From NCBI GenBank assembly GCA_029855935.1, contig JAGSHN010000022.1, forward strand, positions 1-64,000: DNA of 64,000 bases, read 5' to 3'. This document shows, piece after piece, positions 43,612-46,795 of this stretch. The DNA is from Candidatus Thorarchaeota archaeon. Lineage in GTDB: Archaea > Asgardarchaeota > Thorarchaeia > Thorarchaeales > Thorarchaeaceae. A model generated the notes under the pieces. That model made no database searches, had not been told where the DNA came from, and saw nothing but the letters and a program-made list of their open reading frames with translations. Both the position numbers and the translations under genes were made by a program. Numbering within the stretch: position 1 is the stretch's first letter; each line of letters starts with the position of its first letter.

Positions 43612-43619
43612 TTTATATT
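43612..43619 (+). promoter_or_regulatory. TATA box TTTATATT for rpb5
   Basis: It lies 45-52 bases before ATG 43664; it predicts a leader of about 20 bases and excludes the earlier in-frame start at 43619. Confidence 0.6.
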
Positions 43620-43663: not shown

Positions 43664-44248
43664 ATGGCCGAGATGATAGATGGGGCTGAGCGTGGGATTC
43701 CGACCATTGTGAAGAAGACACGCCAATTACTGACCCTCCGCGGCTATACAGTCAACGAGCTGTACGAGTACGACACCCGATACGTGATGATCCCCGAGAA
43801 GCGAACCGACGATCACGTGACTAGGTCAGTCGTGTGGGTGCTCAAGGAACCAAGGGTCGTTGGTGTCGCAATCATCAAGGACCTGATTCGCAGCATGGAG
43901 GAGAACGAGGCTGAGGAGGGCATCCTCGTCGGCGGCGCGCGCTTCACGCCAGCTGCAAAGAAGCAGGCACGCGAGAGCAATGTGGAACTTGTTGAGGGCA
44001 CCTATTCCTCCTTCGATCTCTTCAAGCACGAACTGGTGCCCAAGCACTACATAGCCTCCGAGGAGGAGGTCCGCAGAGTTCTTGAGTACTATGGCATATC
44101 AAAGACCGACCTGCCACGCATCTACCGCGACGACCCTGCGGTGCGTGTCCTTGGCGCCAAGGCAGGACAGGTCATCAGAGTGGAGAGATTCAGTCCGACT
44201 GCCGGAAAGACTCACTACTGGCGCCTCGTCGTTGAGGGCGCATCGTGA
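43664..44248 (+). CDS. RNA polymerase subunit Rpb5/RpoH, full-length eukaryote-like form
   Basis: The product is 194 residues. The C-terminal part (118-190) is the conserved assembly domain: HELVPKHYI, LPRIYRDDPAVR, GAKAGQV, TAGKTHYWRLV. The first 115 residues correspond to the eukaryotic Rpb5 jaw domain: VKKTRQLLTLRGYTV, the EPRVVGVAIIK block and ILVGGARFTPAAKKQA line up with human POLR2E. Most archaeal RpoH proteins, about 80 residues long, lack this half. It binds the polymerase near downstream DNA. ATG 43664 has GGTG eight bases upstream; TATA at 43612. Confidence 0.88.
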   Translation: MAEMIDGAERGIPTIVKKTRQLLTLRGYTVNELYEYDTRYVMIPEKRTDDHVTRSVVWVLKEPRVVGVAIIKDLIRSMEENEAEEGILVGGARFTPAAKKQARESNVELVEGTYSSFDLFKHELVPKHYIASEEEVRRVLEYYGISKTDLPRIYRDDPAVRVLGAKAGQVIRVERFSPTAGKTHYWRLVVEGAS

Positions 44249-45189: not shown

Positions 45190-46029
45190 TCACTCGATCT
45201 CCCGTGTGTCAGCAACAGGCCGTGGCTCTACTCCTGAGAGCTCAGCCAGTGTGCTGATCGCCGAACGTACTCTGTCCCTGATCTCGTCCAGCGACTCTCC
45301 GCGGGCCGACACCCACACTCTGAGCACATCGCTGGTGCCGTATCTTCTCGGCATCGACTTGATGTACACACCGGGGTTCTTTCGCATCGCCTTCGTGATG
45401 AACGGAGCGAAGACGGTCTCATCGCGGACGGGAAACTCCACTACCTCCTCGTAGTATCGTCCCGTGACACGTTCCTCAAGCCACGGGACTACCGAGTCCT
45501 CAAAGATGAACTTGAGCTCGCTCGGAACACCGGGCAGACAGAATATCACCGCTGCGTCGGTCTCGAGGCGGATACCCGGCGCGCCACCGACCCTGTTGTC
45601 GAGAGGGACCGCACCCTCGGGTATCATCGCCATCTTTCGTCTGCTATCAATGTAGTCGGGTGTGTCGACGATACCCCTCTTGTAGAGCTCCTGGTACTGC
45701 CTCTTGACAATCGCGGCCGCGTGGGGGTCCTCCACCAGAGGGAGACCAAACGTTCTCGCCACAGCCTCAAGTGTCATATCATCGTGGGTGGGTCCCAGAC
45801 CCCCTGAGGTGAAGATGACATCACTCGTCTCTGCCAGAAAATGTATTCCTGCGGCAATCTCATCCAGATTGTCGCGGACTGCGGCAAGACGCGAGACCCT
45901 CAGCCCGATTGAGGCGAGCCTCAGCTCCAACCAGTTAGAGTTAGTGTCTAGGATCATCCCGTCGAGAATCTCGTTTCCTATGATCAAGATGCCTGCTGAC
46001 CCGACAACACTGTCACCGCGATTCATCAT
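45190..46029 (-). CDS. CinA/MoaB-type molybdopterin-binding-like protein
   Basis: The product is 279 residues. The N-terminal MoaB/MogA-like fold shows GILIIGNEILDG, TSGGLGPTHDDMT and PEGAVPLDN, then a GAPGIRLE segment and VIFCLPGVPSELK. The C-terminal extension is archaeal. Related CinA-N proteins act on ADP-ribose or nicotinamide nucleotides; its role here is unknown. It lies three bases downstream of the HD gene. Confidence 0.82.
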   Translation of the reverse strand: MMNRGDSVVGSAGILIIGNEILDGMILDTNSNWLELRLASIGLRVSRLAAVRDNLDEIAAGIHFLAETSDVIFTSGGLGPTHDDMTLEAVARTFGLPLVEDPHAAAIVKRQYQELYKRGIVDTPDYIDSRRKMAMIPEGAVPLDNRVGGAPGIRLETDAAVIFCLPGVPSELKFIFEDSVVPWLEERVTGRYYEEVVEFPVRDETVFAPFITKAMRKNPGVYIKSMPRRYGTSDVLRVWVSARGESLDEIRDRVRSAISTLAELSGVEPRPVADTREIE

Positions 46030-46032
46030 AGT

Positions 46033-46686
46033 CTACTCCCCGCATTCCAATTCAAGCTCCCTGTCCAGGGCCCTGCTTATTGCGTGCAGAGTGTCCAGTC
46101 TCTCTCGTGCAAGGCGCTTGGCCGTATCGGTGACCATGGTCTCCGAGATCTGCTGAGCCAGCGGAAGAAACTTGCGCAGACGTTCGGCCATGTCGCTGAG
46201 GCGCAGCCCGGGCCGGAGGATGACACCATTGAGGACATAGTGAAGTAGTCCGACGACTCCAAGCTTCACAAGTTTGTCTGCCTCCCAGAGGACCTGTGAC
46301 TCCAGTGAAGGTAGGGGCGCTCTGAGAGTCAGACCCACGTGGTCACGGATGGCCTGCGCCACCCGCTCAATCGTCTCCTCATCAATGCCAGCCTCGCGAA
46401 GAGTCCTCGCTGCTCGGCGAGCGCCCTCCTCTCCGTGGTCGTCAGCCCCACCGAGACCGGGCTTCGCACAATCGTGTAACCAGGCCGCCAGCTTCACAAT
46501 GCGCTCGTCTGCACCCTCAGCCCTCGCGAGATGAAGTGCGGTCTCCACCACCAGCTCGACGTGGTCGCCACGGTAGTTGTAAGGTGGCACTTCAGAGGTA
46601 TCAAGCGCGTTCCTCCACTCTTTGCGGGCTGCGCGCTGCGACTCGCACATGACCATCTCTCTGAGCCGCCGCTCAATGTCATTCAT
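46033..46686 (-). CDS. HD-domain phosphohydrolase
   Basis: The product is 217 residues. HD-type metal motif: H at RGDHVELVVETALHLA, LAAWLHDCAKPG (HD) and DHGEEGA, then IRDHVGLT. Such enzymes hydrolyse nucleotides or RNA ends; the substrate is not clear. ATG 46686 has GGTGG upstream; an earlier frame start at 46725 is less likely. It is first in the operon with the CinA-like and dolichol-kinase-like genes. Confidence 0.82.
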   Translation of the reverse strand: MNDIERRLREMVMCESQRAARKEWRNALDTSEVPPYNYRGDHVELVVETALHLARAEGADERIVKLAAWLHDCAKPGLGGADDHGEEGARRAARTLREAGIDEETIERVAQAIRDHVGLTLRAPLPSLESQVLWEADKLVKLGVVGLLHYVLNGVILRPGLRLSDMAERLRKFLPLAQQISETMVTDTAKRLARERLDTLHAISRALDRELELECGE

Positions 46687-46795
46687 CACGGCCACCGTCG
46701 GCGAATGGGGCCACATCCCTTTCAAGCCTTGTCATTAGGACCAATTGGGAATCAGGGCCAAGGCTTAAGAGGAACTGGCCAAGAGCTCCCAAACT

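Follow-up and report, generated by a model that had tools for sequence, protein, structure and literature searches.

A jaw-bearing, two-domain RpoH in Thorarchaeota and other archaea and its likely relationship to the eukaryotic polymerase subunit Rpb5

Introduction

In archaea, the gene for the RNA polymerase subunit RpoH (Rpo5) is usually located directly upstream of rpoB, and this position is not a defining property of the protein family. The homologous eukaryotic subunit is Rpb5. Structural and review papers published in 2009, 2014 and 2018 regard the N-terminal domain of Rpb5 as restricted to eukarya (PMC2675907, PMC3906176, PMC6690254), and this domain has been described as a nuclease fold in which the catalytic residues are missing (PMC551604). 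In human Pol II, the TPSA loop of Rpb5 touches the downstream DNA (PMC6690254). A survey of archaeal polymerase subunits from 2026 includes an Rpo5 from Thorarchaeota in its models, and the N domain is not mentioned in the accessible portion of that survey. No prior report of an Rpb5-type jaw in archaea was found in the open literature, to which our search was largely confined. Here we describe an rpoH gene in a stretch of 64,000 nucleotides from a Candidatus Thorarchaeota archaeon (contig JAGSHN010000022.1 of assembly GCA_029855935.1, positions 1 to 64,000), hereafter referred to as the window.

Results

The rpoH gene and its assembly domain

The rpoH (rpo5) gene extends over positions 43664..44248 of the + strand and encodes 194 amino acids plus a stop codon, and the translation of this open reading frame agreed with the original prediction in frame, coordinates and length. 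An in-frame TTG at 43619 would give an alternative product of 209 amino acids; judged by the starts of related proteins, the ATG at 43664 fits better. About 45 bases upstream of this ATG, a TATA-like sequence, TTTATATT, was read by eye (43612..43619, + strand), which suggests that rpoH may have its own promoter. The closest named relatives of the protein are those of Thorarchaeota (58-75% identity), and a single RpoH match was found in the 97%-complete, 2.97-Mb genome to which the window belongs (G000). Elsewhere in the window, at 45193-46725 on the - strand, HD-domain and MoCF/CinA-like genes form two adjacent open reading frames, which in a related thorarchaeon are one frame of 510 amino acids (L035:5376-6905, - strand).

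The presence of a C-terminal RpoH assembly domain, which had been predicted from the sequence, was borne out by Pfam and PDB matches. Residues 117-189 (44012..44230, + strand) match RNA_pol_Rpb5_C (PF01191) with an E-value of 1.1e-25 and cover the whole profile. When the full protein was compared with the PDB, its C-terminal half matched archaeal Rpo5 structures with an E-value of 5e-20; the matches to eukaryotic Rpb5 began at residue 47 or 57 (E ~1e-17). With respect to the RpoH family, the protein thus has the Rpb5_C domain and occurs once in this genome, as befits a core subunit, and its gene does not have the position upstream of rpoB. An assembly role for the C domain has a firm basis; given its homology, it would dock on the largest polymerase subunit, as its counterparts do in archaea and eukaryotes alike.

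The N-terminal half is a nuclease fold that lacks the catalytic motif

The N-terminal jaw-like domain comprises residues ~13-112 (43700..43999, + strand) and has a PD-(D/E)XK/Mrr_cat fold without catalytic residues. Pfam assigned residues 21-112 to Mrr_cat (PF04471, E 4e-8), and also matched this half to NA-iREase1, an inactive restriction-endonuclease family. Mrr_cat was matched by the N halves of all 12 archaeal RpoH proteins submitted to Pfam, while Rpb5_N (PF03871) gave no significant match among 12 archaeal N halves, with a hit to one of the 12 at an E-value of 0.17. By this test the archaeal N half is not a member of Rpb5_N, and the Pfam model may be too narrow for it. The AlphaFold2 (AF2) model of the N half alone was confident (pLDDT 91.2, pTM 0.85). 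In the model of the full protein (pLDDT 86.5), two confident domains are joined by a flexible linker with pLDDT values below 50 (residues 115-121; 44006..44026, + strand).

In the alignment, the catalytic [E/Q]xK was absent from every RpoH and Rpb5 jaw examined, and the first acidic catalytic residue was retained in some RpoH jaws only. QxK or ExK was present in some stand-alone Mrr relatives encoded by the same genomes (L156, L157, L158 and L161). Accordingly, the fold and profile of the Mrr_cat PD-(D/E)XK group are found in the N domain, and the catalytic D ... [E/Q]xK is not. The N domain is derived from an Mrr-type nuclease fold of which the catalytic residues have been lost, and the absence of [E/Q]xK from the RpoH jaws agrees with the published view of the Rpb5 N domain as an inactive nuclease (PMC551604). 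That the domain might still be an active nuclease tethered to the polymerase could be argued from the Mrr_cat match and from the first acidic residue kept in some relatives. We rejected this idea on the catalytic residues and consider it hardly credible, as the RpoH jaws examined do not have the [E/Q]xK motif that some of their stand-alone Mrr relatives keep. As a separate observation, family f20 encodes a conserved stand-alone Mrr-like protein of 134-143 amino acids with the motif IKDWKRAVGVDI (L162, L164, L165, L167, L168 and L171); this family belongs to the class of genome G062, which is considered below.

The N-terminal half matches the jaw of eukaryotic Rpb5

The N half had been predicted to line up with the eukaryotic Rpb5 jaw, and this was upheld by profile searches. 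Eukaryotic Rpb5 chains were the sole significant matches (E 2e-4) when a profile built from 12 archaeal N halves alone was searched against 177,635 PDB sequences. The resulting alignment coincides at the VG(V/I)K strand and the TPxA loop, and all three motifs named in the prediction, i.e. the RGY helix, the end of the VG(V/I)K strand and the TPxA loop, occupy equivalent positions in the archaeal N half and Rpb5. In the window protein, the TPAA loop (residues 95-98; 43946..43957, + strand) is aligned with the TPSA loop of Rpb5.

With the single-chain AF2 model of the full protein as query, the first 33 Foldseek ranks were all taken by Rpb5-type subunits of eukaryotes or viruses (best E 8.7e-14). 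The domain arrangement of this model differs from that of Rpb5 (TM ~0.4, rmsd ~13 A). The N half alone matched the Rpb5 jaw with TM values up to 0.62 (7vba_E; 22% identity, rmsd 3.1 A, 118 columns); for the restriction enzyme MspJI, the TM was 0.57 and the identity 12%. The fold is common to the Rpb5 jaw and Mrr-like enzymes, which match it about equally well, and in sequence the N half is nearer to Rpb5. The architecture of the eukaryotic two-domain Rpb5, with a jaw fold in front of the assembly domain, is therefore present in the archaeal protein.

For profile-profile comparisons, a eukaryotic jaw profile was made from Saccharomyces cerevisiae, K. phaffii, S. pombe, human and partial A. thaliana sequences; the yeast Rpb5 query is identical to PDB 1dzf and the other eukaryotic sequences were taken from PDB alignments. 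This profile matched that of all archaeal RpoH N halves with 97% probability and a score of 62-70. The match to RpoH of the Heimdall class had a probability of 96.7% and a score of 60 over 87 columns, which came mostly from family f18 (59.5 for f18 alone, 44 without f18). Scores for other groups were 46 (other Asgard archaea), 39 (Bathyarchaeia), 34 (Thorarchaeota) and 40-43 (stand-alone Mrr relatives). Column-permuted controls had maxima of 15-19 and never exceeded 20, as compared to 34-62 for the real profiles, and the match between the RpoH N half and the eukaryotic jaw is, at the level of sequence profiles, beyond chance. The clearest archaeal/human jaw pair is formed by FPRKASIGVKTIRELDQYRKDEDIQDAIIIAEGALTHYAKR (f18, L113) and human Rpb5.

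Descent of the eukaryotic jaw

In a tree of N halves (109 columns), the RpoH and eukaryotic jaws were split from Mrr with a support of 95/95, and the eukaryotic sequences were located near those of the Heimdall class without support. Constraining the eukaryotic jaws with Mrr gave a slightly higher likelihood and was not rejected by the AU test (p-AU 0.749); neither was their placement with Bathyarchaeia (0.242) or Thorarchaeota (0.138). In the tree of C domains (75 columns), the eukaryotic Rpb5 clade was joined by the long-branched L017 (98/86), a grouping that possibly represents long-branch attraction and that we do not trust. Since the tree gives no resolved placement, common descent rests on architecture, catalytic loss and profile similarity.

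These data have to be weighed against the view that a dead Mrr-like domain was fused independently to RpoH in archaea and to Rpb5 in eukaryotes, in which case the archaeal half would be jaw-like in function but not an ancestor. In Pfam, Mrr_cat indeed gives the domain a better score than Rpb5_N does, Foldseek puts the Rpb5 jaw and MspJI at about the same level, and the AU test did not reject a grouping of eukaryotic jaws with Mrr. However, a rare fusion would then be needed twice, at the same end of the same subunit and with the same catalytic loss, the eukaryotic profile is nearer to Heimdall-class N halves (60) than to Mrr (~40), and the free tree groups the jaws with the RpoH N halves at 95/95. 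We consider independent fusions unlikely, albeit worth keeping in mind. Most likely, eukaryotes inherited Rpb5 from an archaeal jaw-bearing RpoH. The Rpb5 jaw is likely to predate eukaryotes, because the archaeal and eukaryotic domains share fold, domain order and catalytic loss and because their profiles match significantly, most strongly for f18 of the putative Heimdallarchaeia; to this extent the original prediction holds, while the tree does not reject an independent Mrr-like fusion.

Distribution of the two-domain RpoH

Two-domain RpoH proteins were found in named relatives belonging to Thorarchaeota, Jordarchaeia, Borrarchaeum, Sifarchaeum, Hermodarchaeota and many Bathyarchaeota. Our sample consisted of 214 Asgard and 299 Thermoproteota genomes. 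Among the 214 Asgard genomes, which the original prediction had proposed to search, the long form was present in most family codes (f1, f4, f7, f9-f11 and f13-f25), family f8 had a long RpoH with a divergent N half, and the short form was found in f2, f3, f5, f6, f12, f26 and f27. The two conflicting genomes, G196 and G201, have 9% and 12% contamination. The class that includes G062 (families f15 and f17-f22) is probably Heimdallarchaeia, and every family in it with a detected RpoH had the jaw. Rpb8 and L22e, tried as markers for the identity of this class, gave no hits, and neither did their controls.

Full-length matches were also obtained in 51 of the 299 Thermoproteota genomes, every one of them from the class that contains the Bathyarchaeota genome G217. 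Among the 119 genomes of this class (Bathyarchaeia) with a match, ~97 had the long form and ~22 the short form; in the other Thermoproteota of the 299 sampled, the jaw-bearing RpoH was absent. An Asgard-only trait is ruled out, as most Bathyarchaeia, which are TACK archaea, carry the two-domain RpoH, and for the same reason the jaw form is not diagnostic of Asgard. The genome is an Asgard genome, as the 58-75% identity to thorarchaeal proteins indicates, but the suggestion that the jaw itself supports this origin does not stand. Likewise, the statement that most archaeal RpoH proteins lack the N half holds for solved archaeal RpoH structures and for the majority of the Thermoproteota sampled; it does not hold for Asgard archaea and Bathyarchaeia. 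The same fusion at well over 100 homologous loci in two archaeal groups rules out an assembly or frame artefact that would have joined two genes on one contig; the probability of such an artefact is negligible.

Gene linkage and probable gene replacement

The long and short rpoH types are rarely if ever found together in one genome, and they differ in genomic position. Downstream of the jaw-bearing genes with enough flanking DNA, rpoB was found in 0 of 122 distinct cases, as opposed to directly downstream of 35 of 36 short rpoH genes (confirmed with Pfam for five), although the loci are related to one another and the counts do not represent independent events. The neighbours of long rpoH vary by lineage and include CofD, HAD hydrolase, CTP synthase, FttA and gamma-glutamyltranspeptidase genes. 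No N-half match was detected in the fetched neighbourhoods of short rpoH genes, which rules out a split jaw gene there. The linkage pattern suggests that the jaw form is a relocated gene lineage, which would have taken the place of the operonic short form in the majority of Asgard archaea and Bathyarchaeia. The simplest reading would be a single relocation and domain capture, after which the operonic gene was replaced via differential loss or transfer.

The position of long rpoH away from rpoB, and the presence of two full-length copies in tandem in several Thorarchaeota, could also be taken to mean that the long protein is a specialised alternative subunit of an accessory or stress polymerase rather than a core subunit. 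This is very improbable, since the window gene encodes the sole RpoH found in a 97%-complete genome and most lineages with the long form have no accompanying short RpoH.

Unusual RpoH variants

Several variants were encountered. RpoH proteins of 439-500 amino acids with three tandem jaw-like domains before Rpb5_C occur in families f15 (L124:1447-2871, L126, L129, L131 and L134) and f19 (L119:1474-2790 and L121), both of the probably heimdallarchaeial class of G062; repeats 2 and 3 are clear by HMM, and repeat 1 is weaker (91.9% by profile comparison). The tandem pairs of Thorarchaeota, seen in several genera, are ~640 bases apart (including L018, L020, L024 and L027), and the window genome has one copy. 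In G126, two unlinked jaw-bearing copies, L145 and L146, are separated by ~104 kb. RpoH of family f18 (L115, L116, L118 and L123) has a repetitive C-terminal tail of ~80-110 residues rich in lysine, proline and alanine, e.g. KKAKATPDKKAKATPDKK, which is reminiscent of histone H1 tails. In families f14 and f16 (L128, L130, L132 and L133), the jaw is accompanied by an insertion of ~20 residues in the assembly domain, before the final strand. Lastly, L017 (G043, f8) encodes an RpoH of 246 amino acids with a very divergent N half.

Discussion

Altogether, the window gene is probably the ordinary and only Rpo5/RpoH of the thorarchaeal RNA polymerase, in a two-domain form of which the N domain acts as a DNA-gripping lower jaw, and it represents a relocated lineage that was ancestral to Rpb5. 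By analogy with Pol II, the N domain would most likely extend the lower jaw of the polymerase, with the TPAA loop most likely gripping the downstream DNA duplex as the Rpb5 jaw does. This grip would, most likely, steady open and elongating complexes.

We can also envisage a broader history, for which the chances seem about even. There would have been two ancient archaeal rpoH lineages, a short operonic one and an unlinked one with a captured dead Mrr-type nuclease domain, and the latter would have displaced the short one in most Asgard archaea and Bathyarchaeia, tripled its jaw in some probably heimdallarchaeial families and become eukaryotic Rpb5. If so, the 'eukaryote-specific' Rpb5 jaw would have been invented in archaea, from a restriction enzyme. 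Should the archaeal jaw prove ancestral, Pol II and the archaeal polymerase would no longer differ in one of the few respects in which their sizes do, the Mrr-type nuclease fold would become the concrete source of the Rpb5 jaw, and the part that this jaw first played at downstream DNA could be tested in a simpler enzyme that works without Pol II factors. The division of rpoH genes into short ones in the operon and long ones outside it would be a record of gene replacement in a core transcription machine.

Comparison with known systems

The canonical RpoH/Rpo5 proteins of Pyrococcus, Thermococcus and Sulfolobus have 77-84 amino acids, and their assembly domain is clearly homologous to that of the window protein (E 5e-20). 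Unlike the long form, canonical RpoH is without an N domain, and 35 of the 36 short genes examined are located upstream of rpoB, whereas the long form is encoded elsewhere. Type IV restriction endonucleases and other Mrr_cat proteins (Mrr, MspJI, AF1548) have the fold of the RpoH N domain and give a significant profile match, but the RpoH domain has no [E/Q]xK and is joined to a polymerase subunit. Eukaryotic Rpb5 (ABC27/RPABC1), a subunit of Pol I, II and III, has the same two-domain order, a homologous C domain and an N domain with an inactive PD-(D/E)XK fold, as in archaeal RpoH. Compared to Rpb5, the archaeal N domain is shorter, does not have the insertion of ~15-25 residues after the first helix, is only ~12-22% identical and is not recognised by Pfam Rpb5_N.
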